Below are positions 5,775 through 23,024 of a stretch of DNA of 64,000 nt, in pieces; positions within the stretch are counted from its first letter, which is position 1; each line of letters starts with the position of its first letter. Made by a program: the position numbers and the translations under genes. Origin of the DNA: Hydrotalea sp. (GTDB lineage: Bacteria; Bacteroidota; Bacteroidia; Chitinophagales; Chitinophagaceae); assembly GCA_027364735.1 (NCBI GenBank), contig DAHXOT010000049.1, forward strand, positions 1 through 64,000. The letters are read 5' to 3'. The notes beneath the pieces were generated by a model that was not told where the DNA came from, ran no database searches, and was given only the letters and a program-made list of their open reading frames with translations.

Positions 5775-5776
5775 AA

Positions 5777-7273: not shown

Positions 7274-7278
7274 CAAAC

Positions 7279-8193
7279 CTAATTTTTTAAATTTTTGTAT
7301 AAATTAGGATAATCGCTTATTAATCCATCTACTCCCATTGCTTTTAATTGTTGCATGGTAGCAATATCATCTACTGTCCATGGAATTAATTTCATCCCTA
7401 ATTCTTTACATTGTTTTACCAATAAAGTATTTACTGTTGAATAATCGGGCGAATAAATAGTAGGAATAAATCCTAAAGCTTTTAATCGCTCGGCCAAATT
7501 TCTGTTATCTGGAGGTTCGAAAAGATACGCTGTTTTAATCTGTGGATAGTATTGATGTACATATTGCAAAGAACGAATATCGAAAGATTGAATTATTACC
7601 CTATCTGCAATATTCTTTTCTTTAATAATTGTTATTAATAATTCTACAAACTCAGCAGGTTCCGGATGATATAGATTATCCGTTTCAGGCTTACATTTAG
7701 TTTCGATATTGTAATAAGGTTTATTAAGATGATTTTGGCTAACAAAATTTTCTACACTATCAATTACACTACTTAATAAAGGTTTATGCACTGCTAATTT
7801 TTGCTGCTTTGGAAAACGAGGATGCGGCTTTAATCCAACATCAAATTGTTGAGTTTGCAGATAACTCATTCTATAAATATTAAAGTTCATTTCATCCTTT
7901 TCATCTATAAAACTTCCATCGGGCTTTGTAGTTATCTCATGATTAAAAAACGGCTCGTGGCTCATAATTACCTTTTTATCCTTTGTAATTACGGCATCCA
8001 TTTCTAAAGTAGTTATGCCCAGTTGTAAGCCTTTAAGATAGGCAGGTATAGTGTTTTCGGGCATTAATCCTCTGCAACCTCTATGTCCTTCATAATCGAA
8101 AATTGGAATATTTGTAGCGGTATCGGTAAGCACTTTATTAGTTTTACAACCCATCAATAAAAATATAGTTACAGCTATAACAATTGTTCTCAT
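7279..8193 (-). CDS. Glycerophosphodiester phosphodiesterase, lipoprotein
   Basis: A 304-residue enzyme that hydrolyses glycerophosphodiesters to glycerol 3-phosphate and an alcohol. The N-terminus is a lipoprotein signal (MRTIVIAVTIFLLMGC) with the acylated cysteine at residue 16, so it is anchored on the outside of the inner membrane or in the outer membrane. The GDPD barrel follows, with EGHRGCRGLMPENT (catalytic His-Arg-Gly and Glu-Asn), then LEMDAVITKDKKVIMSHEP carrying the metal-binding Glu/Asp and the second catalytic His. It overlaps the upstream PaiB-like gene by four bases (ATGA), so the two are translationally coupled, although no functional link is obvious. Confidence 0.93.
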   Translation of the reverse strand: MRTIVIAVTIFLLMGCKTNKVLTDTATNIPIFDYEGHRGCRGLMPENTIPAYLKGLQLGITTLEMDAVITKDKKVIMSHEPFFNHEITTKPDGSFIDEKDEMNFNIYRMSYLQTQQFDVGLKPHPRFPKQQKLAVHKPLLSSVIDSVENFVSQNHLNKPYYNIETKCKPETDNLYHPEPAEFVELLITIIKEKNIADRVIIQSFDIRSLQYVHQYYPQIKTAYLFEPPDNRNLAERLKALGFIPTIYSPDYSTVNTLLVKQCKELGMKLIPWTVDDIATMQQLKAMGVDGLISDYPNLYKNLKN

Positions 8194-8822
8194 TTATTAA
8201 ATATTTGATCTTTTCTTTTTTGCATTTCTTCGGCTATTGCTTGTTCATTACTATTACCTTTTTGCAAAGAATTAATAATATTATCGAAACTTTTTTCATC
8301 TCTGTTCTGACTAAGTTTAAAAACATGCTCTACTTCAGTTACTTCAATTTCAAACCCTTTAATTGCTTTTAAACTATTAGCTACATAATCGCTGTGCATA
8401 TTTTTAACCGATGCGGAGGAATTTTCATTTTTTTCGAAGTGATTAGTAAGTTGTACTAACTGCTCATATAATGCTTCCTCACTTATCCAGCGTAAAATAC
8501 CTTTTGCATGTACTGCTAAATAATTCCATGTACTTGCTATATTTTTTGTTTCGTACCACGAAGCACTGATATAACTGTTGGCAGCCTGAAAAATTGCCAA
8601 TACATTGCTGTTGGCCTCGAATGCAACTGTATGTTGTTGCTTGCGCATTACATGCCCGGTTAAAAATAATTGATCGTTGCGTTGCTGTAATAAAATAGGA
8701 ATATGTGTTGCAACGGGAAAGTTATTTTTATCGATGCCGCACAAAACAATAAAAGGATGCTGATGCATAAAATCAATTACCTCTTGATCTTGGGCAGCTT
8801 TAAAATAAGGGATATGATACAT
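8190..8822 (-). CDS. PaiB-family FMN-binding protein
   Basis: A 210-residue protein of the PaiB family, which has a split-barrel flavin-binding fold. Members were first described as negative regulators of sporulation and protease genes in Bacillus. The diagnostic segment YISASWYETKNIASTWNY is at residues 85-102, followed by VAVHAKG. The C-terminal 60 residues are helical and charged (EEMQKRKDQIF). It overlaps the glycerophosphodiesterase by ATGA. In Bacteroidota the role of this family is not established, and a flavin-dependent oxidoreductase function is as likely as regulation. Confidence 0.87.
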   Translation of the reverse strand: MYHIPYFKAAQDQEVIDFMHQHPFIVLCGIDKNNFPVATHIPILLQQRNDQLFLTGHVMRKQQHTVAFEANSNVLAIFQAANSYISASWYETKNIASTWNYLAVHAKGILRWISEEALYEQLVQLTNHFEKNENSSASVKNMHSDYVANSLKAIKGFEIEVTEVEHVFKLSQNRDEKSFDNIINSLQKGNSNEQAIAEEMQKRKDQIFNK

Positions 8823-8838
8823 AGTTTAAAGATACGTG

Positions 8839-9936
8839 CTAATCTACCACTTCTATTACTGTTGTTTTAGGAAGATTGGCATTTCGCACAGCAATATTTC
8901 GTACGGCCATTGACGCAAATGTTCTAAAAGAATGTTTGGTAATTTCATTTTCGCTAACCATTGCAGGAATGCCATTATCGCCTCCTTCTCGAATAGATTG
9001 TACCAAAGGAATTTGACCTAAAAATGGTAAATCGTACTCTTCTGCCAGCTTTTTACCACCTTCTTTTCCAAATAAATAATATTTATTATTGGGCAACTCT
9101 TCGGGAGTAAAATAAGCCATATTTTCAACCAAACCCACAATTGGAACATTTACCTGAGCTTGTCCAAACATTGCAATAGCTTTTTTAGCATCGGCTAATG
9201 CCACATTTTGAGGTGTTGTTACAATTATTGCACCTGTAACAGCAACTGTTTGCATTAAAGTTAAATGTATGTCGCCCGTTCCTGGTGGCATATCAATAAC
9301 CAAATAATCTAATTCGCCCCAATCTACTTCAGTTATAAATTGCCTTATTGCACTACTTGCCATGGGGCCTCTCCATACTACTGCACTTTTTTCATCTACT
9401 AATAAACCAATACTAAGCAATTTAATATTAAATTTTTCTAAGGGTATTATAAAAGCTTTTCCATCAATTTCACGCATCATTGGTCTTTCGCTCCTTACTC
9501 CAAACATAATAGGAACACTGGGTCCATAAATATCGGCATCCATTAAACCTACTTTTGCACCACCTTCAGACAAAGCCAGTGCAAGATTAGCAGAAACGGT
9601 ACTTTTACCCACCCCTCCTTTGCCACTTACTACCGCAATTATATTTTTAACGCCACTTAATATTTGCTGTGCATCTTTTCTGTTAGAGGAGGTATTGGCA
9701 CTAAAATTTACATGTACAATAGCTTCTTTATTTACCAATAATTTAATTGCATTAATACAAGCATTGCCAATCATATCTTTTAACGGACAGGCAGGCGTAG
9801 TTAATACTACGGTAAAACTTACCTCATTATTTTTAATTACAATATCTTTTATCATGTTTAAGGTAACCAAATCTTTTCCCAAATCAGGTTCTTGAACATT
9901 GCTCAATGCTTTTAAAACATCTAATTCTGTCATCAT
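8839..9936 (-). CDS. Mrp/NBP35-family P-loop ATPase, Fe-S cluster carrier (ApbC-like)
   Basis: A 365-residue protein that, by family, carries and delivers Fe-S clusters in the cytoplasm. Residues 1-85 are a MIP18/DUF59 domain, including the TPACPLKDMIGNAC region. From residue 98 a ParA-like ATPase begins, with the deviant Walker A SGKGGVGKST at 104-113 and DMPPGTGD further on. The CxxC pair that follows the ENM motif in most Mrp proteins is absent: here the sequence reads ENMAYFTPEELPNNKYY. As far as I recall this is normal for Bacteroidota Mrp, and it implies a different way of holding the cluster or a dependence on the N-terminal cysteines. A -7 element lies upstream at 9968-9975. Confidence 0.92.
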   Translation of the reverse strand: MMTELDVLKALSNVQEPDLGKDLVTLNMIKDIVIKNNEVSFTVVLTTPACPLKDMIGNACINAIKLLVNKEAIVHVNFSANTSSNRKDAQQILSGVKNIIAVVSGKGGVGKSTVSANLALALSEGGAKVGLMDADIYGPSVPIMFGVRSERPMMREIDGKAFIIPLEKFNIKLLSIGLLVDEKSAVVWRGPMASSAIRQFITEVDWGELDYLVIDMPPGTGDIHLTLMQTVAVTGAIIVTTPQNVALADAKKAIAMFGQAQVNVPIVGLVENMAYFTPEELPNNKYYLFGKEGGKKLAEEYDLPFLGQIPLVQSIREGGDNGIPAMVSENEITKHSFRTFASMAVRNIAVRNANLPKTTVIEVVD

Positions 9937-9967
9937 GCAAGTTTTTGTTAAAAAGTTAAAATTGGTG

Positions 9968-9975
9968 CAAAACTA
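9968..9975 (-). promoter_or_regulatory. Candidate -7 element (TAGTTTTG on the minus strand) for the Mrp gene
   Basis: The octamer fits TAnnTTTG and lies 31 bases upstream of the Mrp ATG. No -33 TTTG at standard spacing was found, so this is only a half-site match. Confidence 0.35.
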
Positions 9976-10116
9976 ACATTCCTACACTTTACTTTGTTAC
10001 GAATTACAAAGAAATAAGAAATTAGAAATCAAAACTTAATATGCAGATTGAAATTTTGTTTATCTGTTAAAAAACCTGTTTTTTTGAAACAAGATAACTT
10101 AAGTAATTTTATACTA

Positions 10117-10767
10117 ATGATTAGAAATTTACGATATATTTTCCTACTACTAACAGTATTATCTGTTTTTAAGATAAAAGCTCAGAATAGAAATCCAAAA
10201 GATTCGGTTATAGAATTATATGGTATTGTAATGACCTCGGATAGTTTACGTGCTATTCCATCTGCCAGTGTAATTATTCAGCATAAAGGGCGTGGTGCCA
10301 TTACCAACAACGATGGTGTTTTTTCTATTGCTGTGGTGAAAGGAGATAAAGTAACTTTTTCATCTATTGGTTTTAAAGATAGAGAATATAAAATTCCATC
10401 GAACCTGCCCGATAACCAATATAGCTTAATAGTATTATTAGTAAATGATACCAATTACTTGCCCGCAACTATTTTAAAACCCCGACCAACAAGAGAGCAA
10501 TTTGAACGAGATTTTGCCAATACAAAAATAGCGGATGACCAGTATGAAATTGCCAGGCAAAATACAGATGAACAAAAACGAAGAGCACTAATGGCTGTAT
10601 TGCCTGCTGATGGACAAGAAGCTGTTAGATACCAAATGCAACAACAAGCTGCAAAATACTATTCGCAAGGACAATTGCCTCAAATGAATATTTTTAATCC
10701 GATGGCTTGGGCAGATTTTATACAAGCTTGGAAACGAGGAGATTTTAAAAATAAAAACAATAATTAA
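10117..10767 (+). CDS. Secreted protein with carboxypeptidase-like regulatory (CarboxypepD_reg) domain
   Basis: A 216-residue exported protein. ATG 10117 is preferred to the in-frame TTG at 10048 because it begins directly with a signal peptide (MIRNLRYIFLLLTVLSVF, cleavage probably after IKAQ). Residues 30-115 form a beta-sandwich CarboxypepD_reg-like domain, seen in IELYGIVMTSDSLRAIPSAS, NNDGVFSIAV and VTFSSIGFKDREY. This domain is common at the N-terminus of Bacteroidota outer membrane receptors, but here no receptor follows. The C-terminal 100 residues are Gln- and Met-rich and helical. It is followed eight bases later by the 3-hydroxyacyl-CoA dehydrogenase gene. The function is unknown. 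Confidence 0.8.
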   Translation: MIRNLRYIFLLLTVLSVFKIKAQNRNPKDSVIELYGIVMTSDSLRAIPSASVIIQHKGRGAITNNDGVFSIAVVKGDKVTFSSIGFKDREYKIPSNLPDNQYSLIVLLVNDTNYLPATILKPRPTREQFERDFANTKIADDQYEIARQNTDEQKRRALMAVLPADGQEAVRYQMQQQAAKYYSQGQLPQMNIFNPMAWADFIQAWKRGDFKNKNNN

Positions 10768-10774
10768 CTCCAAA

Positions 10775-11671
10775 ATGCATTTTTCAAATATTACAATTAT
10801 TGGTGCAGGAACAATGGGTAATGGTATAGCTCACGTTTTTGCACAACACGGTTTTACTGTTTCATTGGCCGATGTAAATGCCGCTCAACTACAAAAAGCT
10901 ATTAATACAATAACAAAAAATGTTGACCGACAAATAGCAAAGGGAATTTTAACCGAAGAAAATAAAGAGCAATTATTAAAAAATATTATCCCATTTACCA
11001 ATATTGAAGAAGCGGTTAAAAATGCCGATTTAGTTGTTGAAGCTGCCACAGAAAATATAGAATTAAAATTAAAAATATTTTCGCAAATAGATGCTGCTGC
11101 CCCACCTACTGCTATTTTGGCAAGCAATACATCCTCTATTTCTATTTCTAAAATTGCGGCTGCTACTCATCGCCCCGAATTGGTAATTGGCATGCATTTT
11201 ATGAATCCGGTTCCGATAATGAAACTGGTAGAAATTATTAATGGCTATACCACTAGTAAAGAGGTTACAGATAAAATTGTTTCGCTAAGCAAACAACTTA
11301 ATAAAGTTCCCTGCGTAGTAAATGATTATCCTGGTTTTATAGCCAATAGAATTTTAATGCCAATGATTAATGAAGCTATTTACAGCTTATATGAAGGTGT
11401 TGCCGGTGTTGAATCTATTGATACCATTATGAAATTAGGAATGGCTCATCCAATGGGACCATTACAATTAGCCGACTTTATTGGCTTAGATGTTTGTTTA
11501 AGTATATTACAAGTACTACATCATGGATTTGGAAATCAAAAGTATGCACCTTGTCCGCTATTAATCAACATGGTAACCTCAGGTAAATTAGGGATTAAAA
11601 GTGGAGAAGGATTTTATCAATATTCCGAAGGAAGTAAAGAATTAGTTGTGAGTAAGAGATTTAATAATTAA
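10775..11671 (+). CDS. 3-hydroxybutyryl/3-hydroxyacyl-CoA dehydrogenase
   Basis: A 298-residue NAD(P)-dependent dehydrogenase that interconverts 3-hydroxyacyl-CoA and 3-oxoacyl-CoA in butyrate, fatty acid or aromatic acid metabolism. The N-terminal Rossmann motif is IIGAGTMGNGIAHVFAQHGF (residues 6-25). The catalytic His segment is GMHFMNPVPIMKLVEII near residues 137-153, and the C-terminal dimerisation domain starts at about 185 (DYPGFIANRIL). The length matches stand-alone Hbd/PaaH/MmgB enzymes, not the large fused FadB type. It lies between a secreted regulatory-domain protein and a YdcF protein with close spacing, but the neighbours do not indicate a pathway. Confidence 0.94.
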   Translation: MHFSNITIIGAGTMGNGIAHVFAQHGFTVSLADVNAAQLQKAINTITKNVDRQIAKGILTEENKEQLLKNIIPFTNIEEAVKNADLVVEAATENIELKLKIFSQIDAAAPPTAILASNTSSISISKIAAATHRPELVIGMHFMNPVPIMKLVEIINGYTTSKEVTDKIVSLSKQLNKVPCVVNDYPGFIANRILMPMINEAIYSLYEGVAGVESIDTIMKLGMAHPMGPLQLADFIGLDVCLSILQVLHHGFGNQKYAPCPLLINMVTSGKLGIKSGEGFYQYSEGSKELVVSKRFNN

Positions 11672-11675
11672 GAAA

Positions 11676-12434
11676 ATGTTTTTTATTGTTTCCAAAATTT
11701 TATCTTTTCTTCTAACGCCTATTAGTTGGATTATTGTTTTATTTATTATTTCTATAATAGTTCATTCTAAACCTACCAAGAAAAAAATACGAACTGTTTG
11801 TATAATACTTTTACTCTTATTTTCTAATCCATATTTACACAAACAAACTGTTTTATGGTGGCAAGCAAAACCTATTACTTTAGCTCCTAATAATCATTAT
11901 TCGGCTGGAATTTTATTAGGTGGAATTATTTTCTTCGATAAAAATAATGTTGGCTATTTTGATAATGCGGCCGACAGATTTATTCAGGCAGAAAAATTAT
12001 ACCATCAAGGATTTATTGAGAAAATAATTGTAACAGGTGGTTCTTCTGCAATATTTCATAAAGAACCAAAAGAAGCCGATTTTTTACAACATGAATTATT
12101 GGCAAGTGGCGTTGCCGAAAAAGATATACTGATAGATAATACGGCTCGCAATACGTTTGAAAATGCGGTAAATACTAAAAAGATAATCGATTCGCTTCAT
12201 TTAAAAGAACCATTTATTTTAATTAGCTCGGCAACACATATACCAAGAGCTACAAAAGTTTTTGAAAAAGAAAAAATTAAAGTAATTCCTTTTCCATGCG
12301 ATTATGATATTATCAATACTCCATTTTCGTTTCAAGCAGATTTATTGCCCGATTTAGGTTTATTATCTAATTGGCAAACAATTATTAAAGAAATAATTGG
12401 AACAAAAGTGTATGAATTAAGCGGAAAAGCTTAA
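11676..12434 (+). CDS. YdcF/ElyC-family membrane protein (DUF218)
   Basis: A 252-residue protein with two N-terminal membrane helices (residues 5-28 and 38-52) and a DUF218 domain from residue 75. Typical segments are GILLGG, KIIVTGGSS, a DNTARNTFENA motif and LISSATHIPRA. DUF218 proteins such as ElyC and SanA affect cell envelope integrity and recycling of undecaprenyl carriers in E. coli; the chemical activity is not known. It follows the dehydrogenase by four bases and overlaps the 3' end of yigZ on the other strand by four bases. Confidence 0.88.
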   Translation: MFFIVSKILSFLLTPISWIIVLFIISIIVHSKPTKKKIRTVCIILLLLFSNPYLHKQTVLWWQAKPITLAPNNHYSAGILLGGIIFFDKNNVGYFDNAADRFIQAEKLYHQGFIEKIIVTGGSSAIFHKEPKEADFLQHELLASGVAEKDILIDNTARNTFENAVNTKKIIDSLHLKEPFILISSATHIPRATKVFEKEKIKVIPFPCDYDIINTPFSFQADLLPDLGLLSNWQTIIKEIIGTKVYELSGKA

Positions 12435-13051
12435 ATAATTTTTTTTATTTCAACTGTATGCAACTCTTTAAACTTATAGAGCACTTCATCTAATCTTGCT
12501 TTCGGTATTCCTATTTTCATACTACAAAATAATTGTTGTTGCTGTGCTATAAGCGTACAATTAAACTGTTTTACAACCGTCATTACTTCATTCATTTTGG
12601 TATAATCAAAATGTAGTTCGAAATTACTTTCTACTTGCTTTGTAACAATAGGTGATAATTGCAAAGCCAATGCTGTAGCGGTTTTATAAGCATTTATTAA
12701 TCCGGGAACACCTAATAAAGTTCCTCCAAAATAACGCACAACAATTACAGCAACATTAATTAATTGCTTACTATCTATTTGATTTAATATAGGCTTTCCG
12801 GCAGAACCACTTGGCTCTCCATCATCACTTACTCTAAATGTATTTCCATCTATTCCTACTCTATACGCAAAACAATGATGCACCGCTTTTGGATGCAATT
12901 GTTTTAACTCTTGATGATAATTTTTAAACTCTTCAACAGTATTAATTGGATATGCATACGCCAAAAACTTACTGCCTCTGTCTTTAAATTCGGCAATGGC
13001 AGACTGTTGAATGGTGAAATAAAAGTATTTATCTGTAATGATTTTACTCAT
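12431..13051 (-). CDS. YigZ/IMPACT family protein (UPF0029)
   Basis: A 206-residue protein of the YigZ/IMPACT family. The N-terminal UPF0029 domain (residues 15-125) contains HHCFAYRVG, the highly conserved DDGEPSGSAGKPIL, and VVRYFGGTLLGVPGLINAY, which is the family signature. Residues 135-206 correspond to the C-terminal DUF1949 ferredoxin-like domain. Family members may be linked to translation control under stress, but the bacterial role is unclear. It overlaps ribD by eight bases and is likely cotranscribed with it. Confidence 0.93.
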   Translation of the reverse strand: MSKIITDKYFYFTIQQSAIAEFKDRGSKFLAYAYPINTVEEFKNYHQELKQLHPKAVHHCFAYRVGIDGNTFRVSDDGEPSGSAGKPILNQIDSKQLINVAVIVVRYFGGTLLGVPGLINAYKTATALALQLSPIVTKQVESNFELHFDYTKMNEVMTVVKQFNCTLIAQQQQLFCSMKIGIPKARLDEVLYKFKELHTVEIKKII

Positions 13052-14084
13052 GAATAAAATAATCTATAGTATCGGTAAAAATAGTTTGTTGCTGCTGTAA
13101 AACCATATTTTGTAAAATGGGCGAATTTAATCCGCTACTAATGCTTAAATTATTGTTAGTAATAACTCTTGCTTCATCCCAAATAATATTATCAATAAAA
13201 TTTTGTAAAAGATTAGCTCCTCCTTCAACTAAAACACTTTGAATATTTAACCGATAACAGGCATCTAACAATTCAGTTATCAGGTTTTTATTTTTATCAA
13301 TTAAATAAAAAGTTAGGTTTTCTTTCTTCTCATTTTTTAGAAAATTAAATATTATAGTGTGCTGAGGTTGACCAAAAACATGAAGAGAAGTTGGCAATTG
13401 TAAATACTTATCAATTACCAATCGAGTAGGATTTTTCCCATTCCATAACCTATTATTTAAAAAAGGATTATCGAGTTTAGCAGTATTCGTTCCAATTAAA
13501 ATAGCTTGTTCTTCGGCTCTCCATCGATGGGTTAATCTATTGGTAACTTCATTACTTATCAGTAATCTTTTTTGGTTAGATGCAGCAATTTTTTGATTGA
13601 AAGTTTGTGCCCATTTCAAAATTATATACGGTCTTTTTTTTGTATGAAAAGTAAAAAATCGCTTATTCAATTCTTTACATTCTTCTTCCAAAATATTCGA
13701 AATAACCAATATTCCGGCATGTTGTAATTTTTCAATTCCTTTTCCATCTACTTCACTAAATGGATCTCTACTGCCAATAATAACAGTAGGAATTTTACTT
13801 TCAATAATTAGATTTGTACAAGGCGGTGTTTTGCCAAAATGAACACAAGGCTCTAATGAAACATATAAAGTAGATTGGCTTATTAAGTGCTTATCGGCCT
13901 CGGCAACGCTATTGATACAATTCACCTCCGCATGATCACCTCCATAATATTGATGATACCCTTCTCCTATAATTTTATCACGATAAACTAAAACAGCTCC
14001 TACCATTGGATTTGGTGCAACAAAATATTTTCCCAATTTTGCCAGGTCAATACATCGTTGCATATACATTTCGTGTATAGTCAT
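13044..14084 (-). CDS. ribD: Riboflavin biosynthesis bifunctional deaminase/reductase RibD
   Basis: A 346-residue bifunctional enzyme for the second and third steps of riboflavin synthesis: deamination of the pyrimidine intermediate, then NADPH-dependent reduction of its ribosyl group. The N-terminal deaminase (residues 1-145) has the zinc ligands in GGDHAEVN (His51) and EPCVHFGKTPPC (Cys80, Cys89). The C-terminal reductase, DHFR-like, covers residues 150-346 and includes RPYIILKWAQTFNQKIA and the SVLVEGGANLLQNF loop. No other rib gene is nearby and I see no FMN riboswitch upstream. It is divergent from prmC across a 37-base spacer. Confidence 0.96.
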   Translation of the reverse strand: MTIHEMYMQRCIDLAKLGKYFVAPNPMVGAVLVYRDKIIGEGYHQYYGGDHAEVNCINSVAEADKHLISQSTLYVSLEPCVHFGKTPPCTNLIIESKIPTVIIGSRDPFSEVDGKGIEKLQHAGILVISNILEEECKELNKRFFTFHTKKRPYIILKWAQTFNQKIAASNQKRLLISNEVTNRLTHRWRAEEQAILIGTNTAKLDNPFLNNRLWNGKNPTRLVIDKYLQLPTSLHVFGQPQHTIIFNFLKNEKKENLTFYLIDKNKNLITELLDACYRLNIQSVLVEGGANLLQNFIDNIIWDEARVITNNNLSISSGLNSPILQNMVLQQQQTIFTDTIDYFIHE

Positions 14085-14121
14085 ACCTCAAAACTAAATT
14101 AAAAATTAGTAGCATTGCAGC

Positions 14122-14979
14122 ATGAATATTAAACAAGCCTATCAGCAATTATTATTGCAACTATCTACCATTTACGAAAATCGAGAAGCAGCAAATATTG
14201 CAAATTGGGTAATAGAATATATTACAAAACAAAATAAAATTAATAGGATTTTACATCGGGATATGCTTATTTCAGAAAAACAATTAGCTGAATTAGAATT
14301 GTATACTACGCAATTATTACAGCATCAACCGGTGCAATATGTGCTACAAGAAGCATGGTTTTTTGGATTACATTTTTTTGTAAATGAACATGTATTAATT
14401 CCAAGACCCGAAACTGAAGAGTTGGTTAAATGGACCTTAAATTCTTTACAAGAAAATAATTTGAAAGAAAAAAAAGTTTTGGAAATTGGAACAGGAAGCG
14501 GATGTATTTCAATTGCACTTAAAAAAAATAACCCGAATTTGCAAATTACATCAATTGATATAAGTGCTGAAGCATTGGTGGTTGCAAAGCAGAATGCAAG
14601 CTCATTATTATCAACAATTACATTTAAAGAGATAAATTTTTTAATTGAATCGAATTGGGACAAATTAGAAAAGTACCATATTATTATAAGCAATCCCCCC
14701 TATATTAAAGAATCGGAAAAAGCTACCATTAATAAAAATGTAATAGCATACGAACCGCATGTAGCATTATTTGTATTAGATACTGATGCACTTATTTTTT
14801 ACAAAAAAATTGCCGCTTTTGGTAAGCAACACTTATTACCTAACGGAAAAATATTTGTTGAAATAAATGAAGAATTAGGAAAGGAAACACAAGAAGTTTT
14901 TGAACAAACCGGTTATACAACACAGTTAAGAAAAGATTTACAAGGAAAAGAAAGAATGCTAATGGCAATAATTAAATAA
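14122..14979 (+). CDS. prmC: Release factor glutamine N5-methyltransferase PrmC
   Basis: A 285-residue SAM-dependent methyltransferase that methylates the glutamine of the GGQ motif in peptide release factors, improving translation termination. The N-terminal helical domain covers residues 1-85. The catalytic domain has LIPRPETEELVKW, the SAM site VLEIGTGSGCISIAL (near residues 114-128), and the substrate-binding NPPYIKE. The length is standard. Its 3' end overlaps the convergent membrane protein gene by eight bases. Confidence 0.95.
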   Translation: MNIKQAYQQLLLQLSTIYENREAANIANWVIEYITKQNKINRILHRDMLISEKQLAELELYTTQLLQHQPVQYVLQEAWFFGLHFFVNEHVLIPRPETEELVKWTLNSLQENNLKEKKVLEIGTGSGCISIALKKNNPNLQITSIDISAEALVVAKQNASSLLSTITFKEINFLIESNWDKLEKYHIIISNPPYIKESEKATINKNVIAYEPHVALFVLDTDALIFYKKIAAFGKQHLLPNGKIFVEINEELGKETQEVFEQTGYTTQLRKDLQGKERMLMAIIK

Positions 14980-16549
14980 TTTTATAAATAGCCCAATGCT
15001 CCGTTTCAAACATAATAACGGGTTTAAATTCTCTTTTTAATTCCATTTGATGAATATTATAATCGTTAAGCACGGTAAATCCTCGTAAATTGTTGGTTGA
15101 CTTTGCAACGCAAATAAATTTTGCACCTAATCTTGGATTTTCTGCAACAGTAATAAAATTATTATTTACGGGCATAATTACTGGTCTTAACGTGCGTAAA
15201 TGTGCCATAATTCTAAATGCTGCAGCATCATCCATTAATATTTTATGCGTATCATCGGCAATATCCGAAATGTAAGCAGCTAATTGATATTCTTCAGACG
15301 TTGTTCTTTCATCAGAGAAATTTTTAATTTTCTTCAAGGAGCTAAAAAAGGCCAATTCTTCTTCATCGCCAGAATGCTTAAAATAGAATATGCCTGTAAA
15401 TACATTTAAAATAGCCACTGCAATAATAATTGGATACAAATACTTAATATTAAATCTTTTTCCGGCATAATAAAAAATACCTAATAATCCTAATACCAAA
15501 AAAATAAGGTAATACTCAACAGTAATGTAATATTGATTATCTAATAACAAAATAGACAATAAAATAAATGGTGCTAATAAAGTAAATAATTCATAGATGG
15601 TTCCTTTAAAAATAAAAAACACCAATAATAACATAGGCGTAAGTAGCAATACATACACCTGAAACACAATGTGCGACTGTACTAAGGCATTTTGTACATC
15701 GCCGGATGCTATTAGGTTTCCTACAGAATTATTACCTATTACATGCCAGTTTGCATACTGACTGGTTAAAAAATAAGTAGCATCACCGGCATGGGTATAA
15801 TTTAAAGTTCTAAATAAATAGAGTGCCCCAATTGGTAAAAGAAAAATAATAATATACAAGGCAATAGTTCTATTGGCAAGTTTACGCCTTTGCGACCGAT
15901 TATTTAATGCTTCGAAATATTGAATAACCAAAGGCTGATCTTTCGCAATTTTTAACCCATCTAATGATACTAAAAAAATGAATGGAAAAAAAGCAAGCAA
16001 CATCCAAATAAAATTATAATCGGAAAAAACAAGACAAGATAAATAGATGCTTGCCATAGATAAATAAAAAGAGGTTTGAGAAACATAATATTTAAATAAA
16101 CTTCTCATTACCATGTAAAAGAAAAATAGTATAGCACCTACGCCCCTTCCGGAAATAGCTGCATAAATTAATCCGGGATGAAAAAGAAATAATATTAAAA
16201 TCATTGGTATAAAAACCCTTCTTGGAAGCATTGAAGACTTTGAAAAATCATTCAACAGAAAGAAAAACAATAAAACTGTAAAACTTACAGAAGCCAATAC
16301 CGGTGCAAAGGGATAACCAAATGGAACAAATATTACCGATGATAAAAAAATTAAACTGGGAAAAGTTGTACCTAATGTTAAAAGTGTATTCTCTTGTGCT
16401 TCGAATAAAAGTTTAATTTTTTCTGCAACAAACATAGCTTCTGAATGCTCAAAACCTGTACGATGTAAAAGCCAAGATAAAAGGATATAATACACTAATA
16501 AAAAGAGTGCTATAAATATTGCAATATATTTTTTTAAAAAATTTAGCAT
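14972..16549 (-). CDS. Multi-spanning membrane protein of the exopolysaccharide operon (GT-C-like architecture)
   Basis: A 525-residue integral membrane protein with roughly eleven or twelve hydrophobic helices in residues 1-400. A soluble C-terminal domain of about 120 residues follows. The first external loop carries acidic residues (TGFEHSEAMFVAEK), as in GT-C glycosyltransferases, which use an acidic residue there, but I cannot recognise a specific family. It is the last gene of a four-gene minus-strand operon after a processive-type GT2 and a BcsB-like protein, and starts two bases after the GT2 stop. An acyl- or glycosyltransfer step on the exported polymer, or polymer transport, is a possible role by context only. 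Confidence 0.7.
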   Translation of the reverse strand: MLNFLKKYIAIFIALFLLVYYILLSWLLHRTGFEHSEAMFVAEKIKLLFEAQENTLLTLGTTFPSLIFLSSVIFVPFGYPFAPVLASVSFTVLLFFFLLNDFSKSSMLPRRVFIPMILILFLFHPGLIYAAISGRGVGAILFFFYMVMRSLFKYYVSQTSFYLSMASIYLSCLVFSDYNFIWMLLAFFPFIFLVSLDGLKIAKDQPLVIQYFEALNNRSQRRKLANRTIALYIIIFLLPIGALYLFRTLNYTHAGDATYFLTSQYANWHVIGNNSVGNLIASGDVQNALVQSHIVFQVYVLLLTPMLLLVFFIFKGTIYELFTLLAPFILLSILLLDNQYYITVEYYLIFLVLGLLGIFYYAGKRFNIKYLYPIIIAVAILNVFTGIFYFKHSGDEEELAFFSSLKKIKNFSDERTTSEEYQLAAYISDIADDTHKILMDDAAAFRIMAHLRTLRPVIMPVNNNFITVAENPRLGAKFICVAKSTNNLRGFTVLNDYNIHQMELKREFKPVIMFETEHWAIYKII

Positions 16550-16551
16550 AA

Positions 16552-18402
16552 TTATGTTGTTACAGAAGTGGTTGTAGAACCCACTTTAGTTAACCCATGA
16601 TTGGTTTTTTCCCAATAAAATGGTTTGGTAATTAACTGCCATAAACCTTTATACGCTGCTCTGGAATGCATTAACCAATAAATAGGATTTAATAAGGCAA
16701 ATAATATCAACTCATAATATCGTCGTTTAAAAACAGCAAGCATATTAATATACACCATTAATACATTACCGGCAATAAAATTAAAAATAGATACATACAA
16801 TACCCAATCGGGGAATAACTGTCTAATTCCAACAAAATTAAAGATCAGATACAATACAAAAAAGAGTAATAAAACTGGGTAAAGTAGAAACGTAAATGAC
16901 GTTCCACCAATAAAGAAATTAAATCCAAAAAAACCTTGCCAACCAATTCGCCGAATTAACTTTACGGGGTTACGCATGTGCACTAAATACGTTTGCATGT
17001 ATCCTTTAATCCAACGAGAACGTTGACGAATCCAATTAAAAAATTCATTATTGGCTTCTTCCAAAGTTGTACTATTGGCTACACCAATTTTAAATCCTTT
17101 ATCATAAACACGCACACCTAAATCGGCATCTTCGGTAACGTTAAATGGATCCCAAGCGCCTAACTCAATTAATTTATCTAACTTAAAATGATTGGAAGTA
17201 CCGCCTAAAGGAATAGGTACATCTAAAGTTTCTAATCCGGGCAACATATAATCGAACCAATATGAATATTCTAAAGTGAACATTCTGGTAAGAATATTTT
17301 CATTCTTATTAAAGTAATTTAAAGCCCCTTGTATTACCACAAAATCTTCCGGTAATTTTCTAAAAAGAACTACCACTTTTTTCAGTTGATTAGAATCGGG
17401 TACATCTTCAGCATCGTAAATAGTAAGATATTCTCCTCTCGAAAAAAACAATCCATAATTACATGCTTTGGGTTTTGTTTTTGGCATGTGAAATGGAACA
17501 ACAATTACTTCGAAATTAGCTGGAAAATCGAGCTCTCGAACTGCATTTAAAGTTTTATCATCATCTTCTTCAATTAAAAGTTTTACATCTAATTTACTTT
17601 TAGGATAATCTAGACTTCTTAAATTCCAAATTAATTTTCTAATTAATTTATCCTCTTTATATACCGGCAATAAAATGGTGTAAATAGGTAAGGTTTCGTT
17701 TTTTACTTTGGCAATATCTTCTTTTGAAACAGGCTCGTGCAACTCTGCCATTGAACCTTTTAAGGCTAAATATAATTTGAAAAGAATGGAAAAAAGAAAA
17801 AATACACTTGCTAATAAATTAAGGACAGTAACAGTTGGAAGAAAAAAAACAACAAGCAATATTAATATTACTGCAATGGCGGAAAAAATGGAAATCAATT
17901 GTGCATTGGTAAAAGTGGTTAACCCCGAGCTGGCAGGATCTTTACGCATTAAACTAAACACTGCTTCTTTTACATAAAATTCTCCTCGAAGTTTATGAGC
18001 CAACCAAATAATATCTAAATCAGATGCAGCAAGTGTTTTAATAGGTATTTTAAACTTTACGTATAAGGTATTAATTAACTTTTCATCTAACGGATCTGCG
18101 GCAGCAACCAATAAACTTCCATCCGTATCTTTTCGCAAAGGCAGATATAAATAAGAATTAAGATGCTGAATATCGCATTCATTAATATACGTGCCATCAA
18201 TTTCTTCATTTCTAATATCAAGTATAGCATAACCTTTTTTTTCTAAAAAAAGAGTATAATCTTTTCGTACTAAATATCCAAAGTTTAAGGCTGCTTTTAT
18301 TGGTGCATAGCTGTATGTTTCGGCAATAGATTCTACTTCTTTCAATTTATCTTCTTTGAAAGAATTTTCTACTACCATTGAATGCAAAGCGCAGCCTGCC
18401 AT
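16552..18402 (-). CDS. Membrane glycosyltransferase 2 with N-terminal GspE_N-like domain
   Basis: A 616-residue inner-membrane glycosyltransferase. Residues 70-145 resemble the second half of the GspE_N/MshEN domain (LYLPLRKDTDG, VAAADPLDEKLINTL, DLDIIWLAHKL). Two helices follow at about 167-215. The GT2 catalytic domain spans 238-470, with LPVYKED, the nucleotide-sugar acidic cluster YDAEDVPD (329-336), the base region TEDADLGVR (423-431) and QRSRW (460-464), the hallmark of processive synthases such as cellulose synthase. Three or four C-terminal helices follow. There is no PilZ domain. NfrB of E. coli combines the same two domains in the reverse order and binds c-di-GMP through MshEN. The full RLGxxL motif is not evident here, so ligand binding is uncertain. 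Confidence 0.87.
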   Translation of the reverse strand: MAGCALHSMVVENSFKEDKLKEVESIAETYSYAPIKAALNFGYLVRKDYTLFLEKKGYAILDIRNEEIDGTYINECDIQHLNSYLYLPLRKDTDGSLLVAAADPLDEKLINTLYVKFKIPIKTLAASDLDIIWLAHKLRGEFYVKEAVFSLMRKDPASSGLTTFTNAQLISIFSAIAVILILLVVFFLPTVTVLNLLASVFFLFSILFKLYLALKGSMAELHEPVSKEDIAKVKNETLPIYTILLPVYKEDKLIRKLIWNLRSLDYPKSKLDVKLLIEEDDDKTLNAVRELDFPANFEVIVVPFHMPKTKPKACNYGLFFSRGEYLTIYDAEDVPDSNQLKKVVVLFRKLPEDFVVIQGALNYFNKNENILTRMFTLEYSYWFDYMLPGLETLDVPIPLGGTSNHFKLDKLIELGAWDPFNVTEDADLGVRVYDKGFKIGVANSTTLEEANNEFFNWIRQRSRWIKGYMQTYLVHMRNPVKLIRRIGWQGFFGFNFFIGGTSFTFLLYPVLLLFFVLYLIFNFVGIRQLFPDWVLYVSIFNFIAGNVLMVYINMLAVFKRRYYELILFALLNPIYWLMHSRAAYKGLWQLITKPFYWEKTNHGLTKVGSTTTSVTT

Positions 18403-18415
18403 AATATTTATTTAT

Positions 18416-18442
18416 ACAATAGGCAGCATTGCTGCCTATTGT
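18416..18442. promoter_or_regulatory. Perfect 12-bp hairpin just upstream of the GT2 start codon
   Basis: ACAATAGGCAGC, a three-base loop and GCTGCCTATTGT form an uninterrupted stem in the 52-base spacer between the BcsB-like gene and the GT2 gene. On the minus-strand mRNA the stem ends 13 bases before the GT2 ATG. There is no T-run on either side, so it does not look like an ordinary terminator. It more likely affects mRNA stability or translation between the two genes. Confidence 0.6.
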
Positions 18443-18454
18443 TGTAATTTCTGT

Positions 18455-20479
18455 TTAAACAATTTCTTGTGATTGCCTTACTTTATTTCTTACAAAGAAG
18501 AATGCCAACAATACTAAAGCTAATAATACCATTAATAACCAGTATTTATAATTTTCCCAAAAAATAAGCAGCTTACTTCGCTCGCCTTTATACACAACCG
18601 ATGTTTGATCTTCGGGCATTTTAAAGAAATAATTACTTATACCGTTACTGTTTGCAATACAAACATTGCTTTCAATATCGGTAAGTTGTGTACTAAAATT
18701 TTTAATTACACTTGCAAAAGAATTTTTTTGAGTACTATCGCCTAATGATGTTACCAATAAAACGGTACTGCCTCTTTCTCGAAATATTTGAGCCATACCA
18801 CTGTTAGAGAAATCGTTTAGCGAGTAAGTTAATTGTGCCTTACTATCTTTATAAATCTGAAAATCTTTCTCGTATTGAACCGGCAAATTAGAAAACTGCT
18901 TTACAAATGGATCATTATGCTGTAATAAAGCAATTAAATTAAAGCCTTTTAAATCGTCTAAATTGGTTTTATCGGTTGATACTAATTGAGGAACAATTAA
19001 TTTATTGAAATCATTTTTTATAGGAGAATTTAATTGATACAACAACTCTCCAATAGAAGAAACAATATTTGCTTTGTATAATGTAGGTGAAACGATAATT
19101 TTTGAAGGTACTTTTCTAAATTCGGCAGGGAAATTGAAGAAGCTATAGAATTTATTTTCTCGCTCGCCGGAGAAAGTAAGTGTTGAACTTTTTACATTTA
19201 TAAAAGCAAAAAAGTTACTAAACCCATCTTTACAAATATTGGTTCCGGGATGAAATCTAAATTCTACTTCCAATGTATTAAACTTACTTAGTAGGTAAGG
19301 TTTTAAATCAATATCTTCTATAAAATTTGTTCTATCCATTAAAGAGGCATTGTATATAAGATTTTGATTTAGGTAGATATTTAAAAATCCTCTATCATCG
19401 GCTTTTAAAACAGAAAAATAACTTTCTAAATGAAAAGTAAGTTTATTGGGAATGGCATTAAACTCGGTTAAAGAGAAAAGATATTTTTGCCTTAATCCGC
19501 CAATACCTTCCATTAAAGAAGGGTTAGCACCTAACTCTTCCAACGAAGTAATTAATGGAGATGGATTATCTAACGATACATTACTGGGCACAGCTTCGTT
19601 GATGATAATTTTATCGGTAAAAGCACCACTAATTCTTTTATTACTTGCTAAAGTATTAATTGCTTTTCTATAACCTACTGCATCGGCACCCGAAATAATT
19701 AATACATTTTTGGCAGCCATTCCTACATTCATGCGGGCAATCATTATTAAACCTTGCCCTTGAGATAAGGATGGAATTACTTGTTTAACCGAAAATGGAA
19801 GTTTATCGGCAACACCTGTAATAATAGCACTTGGCAAAGTATCTTGTTGTTGATAAACACCAGTATATACTTCTTTGGCCGAACCTTGTTTTAATAAAGT
19901 ATATATAATACCTCCCGAAGTTAAATCGTCTAAATCGGCATTAGCGGGTGTATATACCGAATTAAATTCTTGTACCCATTCTTTTATACTTCTCTGATAA
20001 GTTTGAGTAGATTGATCGGAACCTGATAAAAAGGATGTATTTCGGATGGTTACCCAACAAGCCGGATTATCAACATCTTTACAATATTCATCACCCACAC
20101 TAATTTTAGTACCAATTTTTAATTTAATAAAACGGCCATCGGGTTGTAAATATCTTGTACTTAGTGGTACAACAATAGTAAATAAAGTATCAACCGGCGA
20201 TGCAACCACTCTTTGAGTCCATACAGCTTCATCTTTTAAGTACACAACAATAAAAGAGTTATTTGGGTTGAGTACTTGTGATGCACGAATGTTGATATAG
20301 ACTTTACTTTGATCAACATTATCATTTGGCCTTACTTTTAAGAAGTAACTCACCGAACCGGTAATACCTACTATTGATTGATCATCATACCCCATTGATT
20401 CAAATGTGCGGTCGGACTGAGCATACAAACTTCCTAAGCAAAATAACAAAGCCAAAGTAAAAAGAAAACTGCGTTTCAT
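18455..20479 (-). CDS. BcsB-like periplasmic protein of a polysaccharide synthase
   Basis: A 674-residue exported protein. Residues 1-20 are a signal peptide ending in SLYAQ. The periplasmic body has alternating beta-rich segments like the carbohydrate-binding and flavodoxin-like modules of BcsB, for example SVSYFLKVRPND near the start, FLNIYLNQNLIYNASL, and VEFRFHPGTNICKDGF with its cysteine. A single helix at about 640-662 anchors it, followed by a short basic tail. BcsB guides cellulose through the periplasm as a partner of BcsA; here the partner is the GT2 encoded next. The canonical BcsA, BcsC and BcsZ genes are absent from the window, so the polymer need not be cellulose. Eleven bases separate it from the upstream kinase. 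Confidence 0.75.
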   Translation of the reverse strand: MKRSFLFTLALLFCLGSLYAQSDRTFESMGYDDQSIVGITGSVSYFLKVRPNDNVDQSKVYINIRASQVLNPNNSFIVVYLKDEAVWTQRVVASPVDTLFTIVVPLSTRYLQPDGRFIKLKIGTKISVGDEYCKDVDNPACWVTIRNTSFLSGSDQSTQTYQRSIKEWVQEFNSVYTPANADLDDLTSGGIIYTLLKQGSAKEVYTGVYQQQDTLPSAIITGVADKLPFSVKQVIPSLSQGQGLIMIARMNVGMAAKNVLIISGADAVGYRKAINTLASNKRISGAFTDKIIINEAVPSNVSLDNPSPLITSLEELGANPSLMEGIGGLRQKYLFSLTEFNAIPNKLTFHLESYFSVLKADDRGFLNIYLNQNLIYNASLMDRTNFIEDIDLKPYLLSKFNTLEVEFRFHPGTNICKDGFSNFFAFINVKSSTLTFSGERENKFYSFFNFPAEFRKVPSKIIVSPTLYKANIVSSIGELLYQLNSPIKNDFNKLIVPQLVSTDKTNLDDLKGFNLIALLQHNDPFVKQFSNLPVQYEKDFQIYKDSKAQLTYSLNDFSNSGMAQIFRERGSTVLLVTSLGDSTQKNSFASVIKNFSTQLTDIESNVCIANSNGISNYFFKMPEDQTSVVYKGERSKLLIFWENYKYWLLMVLLALVLLAFFFVRNKVRQSQEIV

Positions 20480-20489
20480 ATATTTCGTT

Positions 20490-21866
20490 TTAATGGGTAC
20501 TTGTATTAAATTCTATTCTATAATAGTTGCCCCTATTTTCATCGCTACTATAGGTTAATTGCCCATGCATAGTTTCGGTTAACTTTTTGGCAACTGAAAA
20601 TCCCAAATCTGCATCAGATTTAATAGATTCTCTAAGCGATTTATAAGGCTGTAACTTGTTAAATAAATCGTTTAATTTTTCTTTTCCCATATCTTTCCCA
20701 AAATTAATTACTTCAATAATACATTTATTTTCTAGTAAATGACTGTGAACTGTTATTATTGAACCTATTTCGGCATATTTTATAGCATTAGTTAATAGTT
20801 TAAATAATACTTGCCCTAAAAAAAGTTTATCTAAATACACTACAATGGATGATGCAGATAAATGTAACTGCATATTTATTTGTTTTATTTGTGCAGCATC
20901 GGCAATATCTATAACAGCTTTTTCAATAGATGGATTAATATCGAAATGTTCGTAATTAAATTCCACTTTTGCTTCATCTCTATCTGCCGAAGAGGCTAAT
21001 TTTTCGGATAAATAATTCAGCTTTTCATTGCCCGATGAAATGTAATTGATGATTTCTTTTTGCTCGGGCGAAAAGTTATCTGCTTTGTTTTTTAAAAGAT
21101 CTAACGACATTTGAATAGAGCCGGTAAAATTTCTAAAATCGTGCAACAAAATATTCATGGTATTGTGCCTATAATCGTTCAACACTTTTAGTTTTCTATT
21201 GGCATCTTCAATTACATATCGCTGATCATTAATTTTTTCATTTTGCTCAATTAGTCTATTATGTGCCGAATCAATTAAAATGTTTTTTGCTACTTCTCTC
21301 CGCAAAATTAAATAACGGTTATAAGCTATTAAGCAAGAAAAGGCCGATACAATAAAATAAACACCTCCACCATGAGAAATGAGGATATTATATTTGTCAA
21401 TATTATCTTTAAACGAAAAAATCCAAATAATGATTATATAAGATATTAAACAACCTAAAATTGAATATATAAACGACCAAAAAAGTGCAGTATTGATTAG
21501 TAGCACAACAACCGAAAGTATTAAAAAGTTAGGTAGTGCTTGATTGATTGGAACTACACAAGCAATTACAGTATGCAGCATTAAATTTAGGCCTAAAAAC
21601 CATTTAAGCGTATAGGTATAATCCCAATTTTTTTTATTCCCAATAATGTAAATTAAATACGAAATGGCAGTAACCAATAATCTTATCAACATCAAATCCA
21701 ACCACTCATACTGGTTTAACAAAAAGTCTAATAGCCAAAATAAAGGAAGAGAAAATAACATTGTCCACATCACTACATTAGCATAATAGGCTCCTTGAAC
21801 ATTTAGTTCAGCAGCTAACACTTCCTTATTTATATTTACATACGAATTTTTAAAATTATTAGACAT
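20490..21866 (-). CDS. Membrane sensor histidine kinase, first gene of the exopolysaccharide operon
   Basis: A 458-residue kinase with six or seven N-terminal membrane helices (residues 30-185) and no large periplasmic domain, so it probably senses within the membrane. A coiled coil links to the HisKA domain with His242 in LLHDFRNFTGSIQ. The HATPase domain (320-455) has an N-box around LFKLLTNAIKYA (Asn360) and a G2-like DADLGFSVAKKL, but the usual DxGxG G1 box is replaced by NFGKDMGKEKL. ATP binding may therefore be altered. It leads the operon with the BcsB-like, GT2 and membrane protein genes, which suggests control of polymer production. No response regulator is next to it. Confidence 0.85.
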   Translation of the reverse strand: MSNNFKNSYVNINKEVLAAELNVQGAYYANVVMWTMLFSLPLFWLLDFLLNQYEWLDLMLIRLLVTAISYLIYIIGNKKNWDYTYTLKWFLGLNLMLHTVIACVVPINQALPNFLILSVVVLLINTALFWSFIYSILGCLISYIIIIWIFSFKDNIDKYNILISHGGGVYFIVSAFSCLIAYNRYLILRREVAKNILIDSAHNRLIEQNEKINDQRYVIEDANRKLKVLNDYRHNTMNILLHDFRNFTGSIQMSLDLLKNKADNFSPEQKEIINYISSGNEKLNYLSEKLASSADRDEAKVEFNYEHFDINPSIEKAVIDIADAAQIKQINMQLHLSASSIVVYLDKLFLGQVLFKLLTNAIKYAEIGSIITVHSHLLENKCIIEVINFGKDMGKEKLNDLFNKLQPYKSLRESIKSDADLGFSVAKKLTETMHGQLTYSSDENRGNYYRIEFNTSTH

Positions 21867-21917
21867 ATTTGCTTTTATAGCGACGGAATTAGATAATCTA
21901 CCTATTAAATATAATAC

Positions 21918-23024
21918 GTGAAAATAAAAATTAAATCAACAGCAGCTTTTTTCTGGATAAATTTTATATGTTGGCTTACAGTATCCACATTGAGTGTACA
22001 ACTTCAAGCTCAGGAAATAGACATGGTTAAAAAAGGTTTAGGAGCCGGCGTAAACATTTCTTTGTTAGAACAATATTGGAACTCTCCTAATACACTTTAC
22101 CAAACAAATATTAATACCCAACTTAAACAAATTGCAAGGCAAGGCTTTACCACTGTACGTTTACCGGTAAATTTTGAGATATTTTTACAACCACAATCTT
22201 TTAATCTTCAACCACAATTATTAGAAAAGCTAAACGAAATTTATTCGGTATGCACGGCTAAAAAATTAAACCTCATAATTTCTTACTTCTATGGAAAACT
22301 CAATGATAATAATTCTAATAATGAAATAGACCGAATTTCGTGGATGTGGAAACAAATTCAACGCAACTTTTTTGGCAAAGGGTATAATAATTTATTTTTT
22401 GAAATTTATAACGAACCAACAATTAGCAACAATAAATGGAAAGAAACCATTACCACACTTGTGCAGTATTTGAGGTACGAAGATGCCAATAGAATTTATA
22501 TCATTGGCGGCACTAATTATAATAATTTAGATCAATTAAAAGAACTTGGCAAAATTGCCGATGATAAAATATTTTACACTTTTCATTTTTATGAACCGTT
22601 CATTTTTACGCATCAGGGTGCTAATTGGACAAATAATAAATCGTACTTAACCGATCTTCCGTTTCCTTATCAAAAAAATAAAATGCCTAAACTGAATAAT
22701 GCAATAAAAAGCACCTCACTGGAAAGAGATTATAATAAATATCCGTACGAGGCAACAGAAGCTTATTTAAATGAACGAATTAGAAATATTGCCAACTTTT
22801 GTAGAAATAATAATATGCCACTTATTTGTACCGAAACCGGCGTAATAAATAATGCATCCAAACAATCGAGAAAAAAATATTTTAGCACCATCACTATAGC
22901 TATGCTGGCAAATAATATTCCCTGCGACTTATGGGATTATGATGATAAATTTTCTATCAAAAAAAATAAAACAAAACTTATATCGAGTGTTAAAAGCTGG
23001 GTTAAAAAAAGTAAACAGCAATAA
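21918..23024 (+). CDS. Secreted glycoside hydrolase family 5 (cellulase-like)
   Basis: A 368-residue exported glycosidase. The signal peptide occupies residues 1-31 (ending in LQLQAQ). The GH5 barrel shows VRLPVNFE (Arg81), the acid/base Glu166 in FEIYNEPTIS, His223 in FYTFHFYEP and the nucleophile Glu306 in CTETGV. GH5 enzymes cut beta-1,4 glucans and mannans. It starts with GTG and is divergent from the exopolysaccharide operon across 51 bases, so a shared control region is likely. In cellulose clusters the hydrolase BcsZ (GH8) trims the product; this GH5 may do the same for the polymer made here. That role is an inference from position. Confidence 0.9.
   Translation: MKIKIKSTAAFFWINFICWLTVSTLSVQLQAQEIDMVKKGLGAGVNISLLEQYWNSPNTLYQTNINTQLKQIARQGFTTVRLPVNFEIFLQPQSFNLQPQLLEKLNEIYSVCTAKKLNLIISYFYGKLNDNNSNNEIDRISWMWKQIQRNFFGKGYNNLFFEIYNEPTISNNKWKETITTLVQYLRYEDANRIYIIGGTNYNNLDQLKELGKIADDKIFYTFHFYEPFIFTHQGANWTNNKSYLTDLPFPYQKNKMPKLNNAIKSTSLERDYNKYPYEATEAYLNERIRNIANFCRNNNMPLICTETGVINNASKQSRKKYFSTITIAMLANNIPCDLWDYDDKFSIKKNKTKLISSVKSWVKKSKQQ

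Follow-up and report, generated by a model that had tools for sequence, protein, structure and literature searches.

Does a locus that couples a membrane glycosyltransferase to a BcsB-like protein and a secreted glycanase encode an ordinary cellulose synthase, or a different polymer machine? We addressed this question for a five-gene locus in a 64,000-nucleotide stretch of Hydrotalea sp. DNA (contig DAHXOT010000049.1, positions 1 to 64,000; hereafter the window). All five open reading frames (ORFs) were verified at their coordinates. Four of them lie on the minus strand and encode, in operon order, a membrane histidine-kinase-like protein (20490..21866; 458 aa), a BcsB-family periplasmic subunit with a signal peptide and a C-terminal transmembrane helix (18455..20479; 674 aa), a polysaccharide synthase combining an MshEN domain with a glycosyltransferase family 2 (GT2) domain (16552..18402; 616 aa) and a membrane protein with a predicted GT-C glycosyltransferase fold (14972..16549; 525 aa); a divergent plus-strand gene starting with GTG encodes a secreted endo-glycanase of glycoside hydrolase family 5 (GH5) (21918..23024; 368 aa). 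The intergenic gaps across the set are 2, 52, 10 and 51 bases, and the ORF calls thus agree with the 10-, 52- and 2-base spacing given in the original prediction, which was made from the sequence alone and proposed a distinct Bacteroidota polymer synthase locus. On balance, we favor the reading that the locus is one part of a synthase-dependent system that is split over two loci and makes a beta-linked polymer with decorations, probably acetylated.

The order of the genes (the GH5 gene facing an operon of the kinase-like, BcsB-like, synthase and membrane protein genes) is kept in Chitinophagaceae, Sphingobacteriaceae and Spirosomataceae, with variable flanks and with intergenic gap lengths that differ among relatives. 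Full-type synthases were found in 26 of 296 Chitinophagaceae genomes, representing 10 of 103 genera (genome G215 matched only via a paralogue, with 34% identity over residues 237-605), and a scan of named genomes added Sediminibacterium, Hydrotalea, Mucilaginibacter, Pedobacter, Spirosoma and Fibrisoma as bearers of the locus. Among the 80 best loci from named genomes, all five genes were present in 51, while 18 more had the four minus-strand genes but no GH5; in the other 11 some part was missing among the called ORFs, and 10 of these 11 loci lie at contig ends. As the locus is conserved across relatives, a chance arrangement is excluded. The GT2 protein is the best-conserved component (61% identity to its counterpart in the Mucilaginibacter-like genome G114), and the BcsB and membrane proteins are much less conserved in the same comparison (31-32% identity). 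A Neorhizobium GT2 relative (39% identity) showed no obvious BcsB, GT-C or GH5 neighbor among the ORFs inspected by eye. No published description of the whole locus was found in the open-access literature, the coverage of which is incomplete, so that an earlier mention is possible; the gene set is apparently both conserved and undescribed.

The synthase matched GT2 in Pfam (1e-17), and the YDAED, TED and QRSRW motifs of processive membrane GT2 enzymes were invariant in an alignment of homologues. In the predicted structure, the glycosyltransferase domain matched BcsA, HAS and PcManGT, with a mannosyltransferase as the top match. The adjacent 674-aa protein matched BcsB (PF03170) at 2.3e-20, with 72.9 bits against a cut-off of 21. 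One could therefore suppose a divergent bcs-type operon that makes ordinary cellulose and in which PilZ, GH8 and BcsC were replaced or lost, given that the glycosyltransferase domain aligns with BcsA and that the BcsB family membership is above the Pfam cut-off. However, the synthase scored 59.8 bits against the CelA equivalog TIGR03030 (cut-off 699.1), fell far under the cut-offs of the cellulose and poly-N-acetylglucosamine synthase equivalogs, and showed no PilZ match in the Pfam search. The GT2 tree, in which the BcsA, NfrB and PgaC branches are very long and which was used solely for this separation, also placed the window clade apart from BcsA. The synthase was also distinct from NfrB, as neither the NfrB equivalog NF008411 nor the cyclic di-GMP (c-di-GMP) motif model NF053729 matched it (E 0.1), compared to 1332.7 and 66.4 bits, respectively, for NfrB itself. 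A full bcsABCZ operon elsewhere in the genome, the case that the original prediction had named as fatal to its proposal, was also considered and rejected. The window's genome encodes exactly one BcsB, and a genome search recovered no close synthase besides the locus copy; the locus thus does not duplicate a standard bcs operon present elsewhere. With the gene order kept in relatives, the proposal of a distinct, conserved Bacteroidota locus other than bcsABCZ holds.

Two further components bear on the same alternative. The 525-aa membrane protein had been called unrecognised, and indeed it had no Pfam match above cut-off and its alignment gave no match in a PDB profile search, but a fold search did classify it. 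Its model (pLDDT 78, pTM 0.84; confidence measures of structure prediction) matched Pmt4 (Z 18.2), ArnT (Z 17.6) and ALG12 (Z 17.2), over 355-400 residues for Pmt4 and ArnT, and the fold matches listed were GT-C enzymes or complexes with GT-C-type subunits; by model comparison, the protein has a GT-C fold. Since GT-C enzymes commonly take polyprenyl-phosphate sugars at the outer side of the membrane, decoration of the emerging polymer chain may be its simplest role. A conserved enzyme of this type would be needless for plain cellulose. The hydrolase matched Cellulase (PF00150, 1e-29), its acid/base E166 (in the NEP motif) and nucleophile E306 were invariant among 28 homologues, and its closest solved structures are GH5 endoglucanases (endo-beta-1,4-glucanases), which is what a cellulose operon might carry. 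The assignment to GH5, and not to the GH8 of BcsZ, stands as originally made, but it is not unique to this locus, as the clostridial Ccs system also uses GH5 and yields a cellulosic polymer without BcsC (PMC7710045).

The conjugative Geobacillus plasmid CP128455.1 (locus L143) carries, at positions 5483-12217, an uncharacterised cluster with a ManC/PMI-type gene followed by genes for BcsB, an MshEN-GT2 protein and a protein annotated as GT39, i.e., a Gram-positive version of the set. The order is the same, the synthases share 49% identity, and profile comparison matched the window's BcsB-like protein to the Geobacillus BcsB over its full length. The GT39-annotated protein scored 25.2 bits against the PMT_2 cut-off of 26.1 and showed a profile relation to the 525-aa family over about 94 columns. 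The plasmid cluster differs from the window locus in its monoderm host, its upstream ManC/PMI-type gene, its intact c-di-GMP motif and the lack of an adjacent kinase or GH5 gene. The ManC/PMI-type gene is a further point against cellulose; together with the top fold match of the GT2 domain to a mannosyltransferase it hints at mannose as the backbone sugar, whereas glucose is suggested by the relatives of the BcsB-like and GH5 proteins. Overall, we consider ordinary cellulose an unlikely product of the locus.

If the system is not a Bcs machine, is it nevertheless controlled by c-di-GMP? The original prediction held that a GspE_N-like domain replaces PilZ on the synthase; PilZ is indeed absent, but the domain is MshEN (PF05157; 3.6e-8, 33.7 bits against a cut-off of 23.1), a known c-di-GMP receptor with a precedent for fusion to GT2. 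Its predicted fold (pLDDT 80-91) matches XpsE, MshE and PilF, and the domain is kept in all family members. MshEN binds c-di-GMP via two RLG...Q motifs (PMC5013675), of which positions R9, G11, Q32, R38, G40 and Q61 correspond to C4, L6, A27, A33, I35 and K56 in the aligned window protein; comparable substitutions in XpsE eliminated c-di-GMP binding. The motif model NF053729 scored approx. 66 bits (cut-off 38) for NfrB and the Geobacillus plasmid homologue, yet gave no match in the window protein or in the relatives L048, L052 and L054, and only 11.5 bits in L121. This result rests on these five proteins, as the L112, L113, L115 and L141 queries were trimmed at the N-terminus; the alignment of full-length proteins includes L112, L113 and L141. 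No GGDEF protein was found in the window's genome, and GGDEF proteins were absent from 49 of 52 locus-bearing genomes, as compared to detection in 8 of 14 control genomes. With the ligand motif lost and no GGDEF protein in the genome, control by c-di-GMP was rejected and appears unlikely. Judged from the aligned residues, the ligand site of the window protein is destroyed and the domain would no longer bind c-di-GMP. As the domain is still kept and well predicted, it probably serves another role, either structural or protein-binding. The fusion of MshEN and GT2 is already known from NfrB; the unusual point, as read from sequence, is the destroyed ligand site.

The retention of a well-predicted MshEN in every family member, and the nucleotides bound by related PilB/PilF domains, could alternatively mean that the altered domain still binds a cyclic dinucleotide or another nucleotide that switches the system. 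We regard this as highly doubtful: all six ligand positions are altered, as in binding-deficient XpsE, the window's genome has no GGDEF protein, and MshE does not bind c-di-AMP (PMC5013675).

How, then, would the polymer leave the cell? The original observation that no BcsC-like porin is present is true of the locus, where none of the genes encodes a BcsC tetratricopeptide repeat (TPR) porin (no genome-wide BcsC search was made), but a candidate exit protein that co-varies with the locus is encoded elsewhere in the genome. In six loci of Pedobacter, Spirosoma and Fibrisoma, an ORF of approx. 280 aa lies between the BcsB and GT2 genes; its product begins with a signal-peptide-like segment and ends in phenylalanine. 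A profile of this protein gave a match in each of the 25 synthase genomes to which it was applied, among them the window's genome (contig C43, 79636-80490). Among the 296 Chitinophagaceae genomes, it was present in 26/26 genomes with the synthase and in 3/270 without, and among 201 Sphingobacteriaceae genomes 41 of the 42 with a synthase match had it, as against 0/159 of the rest. The sole Sphingobacteriaceae exception, G559, keeps only a 259-residue synthase remnant. Hypergeometric p-values for this co-occurrence were tiny; since presence is clustered by genus, they overstate the evidence, and in Pedobacter the co-occurrence is trivial because the gene sits inside the operon. We consider the approx. 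280-aa protein, a putative barrel, the best candidate for the outer-membrane exit.

In the window's genome (positions approx. 1800-7300 of L165, G000:C43:72000-90000), recA and the barrel-candidate gene are separated by a GmrSD-type restriction gene and DNA methylases; in a sister genome (L166), recA directly adjoins the candidate gene.

A secreted esterase is encoded beside the unlinked barrel candidate in 12 of 14 loci, and an AT3 acyltransferase in 7. The esterase is of the AXE1/CE7 type according to Pfam, with a PDB profile match of 1.7e-54 to acetyl xylan esterase. At a cut-off of E<1e-100, with a clear gap before the next matches at 1e-64, the CE7 esterase was found in 24 of the 26 Chitinophagaceae synthase genomes and in the three genomes that have the barrel candidate only. 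Co-occurrence of AT3 was partial (close matches in 9/26 synthase genomes and in a few others, linked in a minority). Some genomes carry two or three barrel-candidate/esterase pairs, and locus L175 (G228) has, at 7586-16999, three barrel-candidate copies, two esterases and AT3 beside a GT2-polysaccharide deacetylase fusion, which suggests that several polymers share the barrel-candidate family.

These multiple pairs also fit a further explanation, in which polymer synthesis is the task of the locus, whereas the co-occurring barrel candidate and esterase serve another pathway that these lineages inherited as well. The clustering of presence by genus, the physical separation of the approx. 280-aa gene from the synthase locus in Chitinophagaceae and the three genomes with barrel candidate and esterase but no synthase point in the same direction. 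These three (G206, G284 and G316), however, are draft assemblies in 260-340 contigs, and their genera include synthase bearers; moreover, the barrel candidate lies within the operon in Spirosomataceae and Pedobacter, the pairing is repeated in two separately sampled families, and G559, with its truncated synthase, lacks the barrel candidate. A separate pathway thus seems to us rather unlikely, if less so than a cellulose operon.

The operon's first gene encodes a protein with a HATPase_c match (3e-14), an HDFRN H-box and degenerate G1/G2 boxes, the ATP-binding boxes being degenerate across Chitinophagaceae. It was found in 69-70 of the 80 loci. The original suggestion of a built-in sensor is borne out insofar as a kinase-like gene leads the operon, but the case is weak: the phospho-accepting histidine is lost in L053, L113 and L128 although the gene stays in the operon, and a lone receiver (PF00072) ahead of the gene in L121, with a similar ORF in L132, was seen only in Spirosomataceae. 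In the histidine-less lineages the protein may act without phosphotransfer; a sensor role is possible, though the data do not require it. On the minus strand, a 12-bp perfect hairpin (18416..18442) lies in the BcsB-GT2 intergenic gap and could serve in mRNA processing or stability. This gap also holds strong hairpins in L034, L049, L050, L052 and L054; most relatives lack them.

Elsewhere in the window, the FtsZ gene (31322-33193) encodes 623 aa with a long C-terminal extension beyond the FtsZ_C domain, and 43879-45984 encodes a PASTA penicillin-binding protein.

In the two-locus system that we favor, the window locus would supply the inner-membrane half for synthase-dependent exopolysaccharide production. 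By homology to BcsA, the GT2 protein would polymerise nucleotide sugar units into a beta-linked backbone and translocate it via a membrane channel of its own; by homology to BcsB, the BcsB-like protein would take up the polymer in the periplasm, where the predicted GT-C enzyme may add a side sugar from a polyprenyl-phosphate donor. Export would proceed through the approx. 280-aa putative barrel, usually encoded in a second locus, whose CE7 acetyl-esterase (often) and AT3 acyltransferase (sometimes) would set acetylation, and GH5 would trim or free chains. The MshEN domain would not bind c-di-GMP, and control may pass through the kinase-like protein or transcription. Several observations weigh against this reading: the GH5 gene is missing from about a quarter of the 80 best loci; genome searches found neither the CE7 esterase nor a close AT3 in the window's own genus; independent co-occurrence events are, given the genus clustering, far fewer than genomes; the approx. 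280-aa protein had no match in family or PDB searches; and its strand-alternation signal, like that of known outer-membrane barrels and above soluble controls, is modest. The more far-reaching version, i.e., exopolysaccharide secretion wholly free of c-di-GMP (with a ligand-blind MshEN), a dispersed, unnamed barrel exit and periplasmic GT-C decoration, is a serious but more tentative possibility.

In how it would operate, the system resembles the Bcs, Nfr and Ccs machines, yet it lacks tested membership features of each. Like Bcs (BcsA-BcsB-BcsC-BcsZ), it pairs a membrane GT2 bearing the D,D,D,QxxRW motifs with a BcsB-family protein and has a glycanase alongside, but it differs in its N-terminal MshEN instead of PilZ, GH5 instead of GH8, an extra GT-C protein, the lack of an in-locus BcsC and a kinase-like protein in the operon. 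With NfrB/NfrA/YbcH (NGR) of E. coli it shares the MshEN-GT2 fusion without PilZ; however, in NfrB the MshEN is fused C-terminally to GT2 and binds c-di-GMP (PMC8669469), whereas in the window synthase it is N-terminal and degenerate, the GT domains are only approx. 24% identical, and the Nfr system has NfrA, a large TPR outer-membrane protein, and no BcsB or GT-C. Clostridial Ccs (CcsZABHI) is similar in its GH5 hydrolase (CcsZ), its lack of a BcsC equivalent and its acetylation genes (PMC7710045), but its CcsA carries PilZ, its CcsB lies outside the BcsB family, its host is monoderm and its acetylation proteins CcsH/I are of MBOAT/DHHW types, as compared to AT3/CE7 here.

The usual hallmarks by which synthase-dependent polysaccharide machines are recognised are a single operon, control through PilZ and c-di-GMP, and a TPR porin. 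Searches of this kind would overlook the present set, yet Mucilaginibacter, Pedobacter, Spirosoma and Chitinophagaceae have conserved it, and many Bacteroidota of soil and freshwater probably use it to produce and export a sugar polymer that carries decorations. If this is true, genes can be named for a matrix polymer produced by bacteria that are common in soil and freshwater, including an exit protein without a known family, and the MshEN domain would be a naturally occurring example of a receptor domain that has shed its ligand, c-di-GMP, in genomes that encode no diguanylate cyclases.

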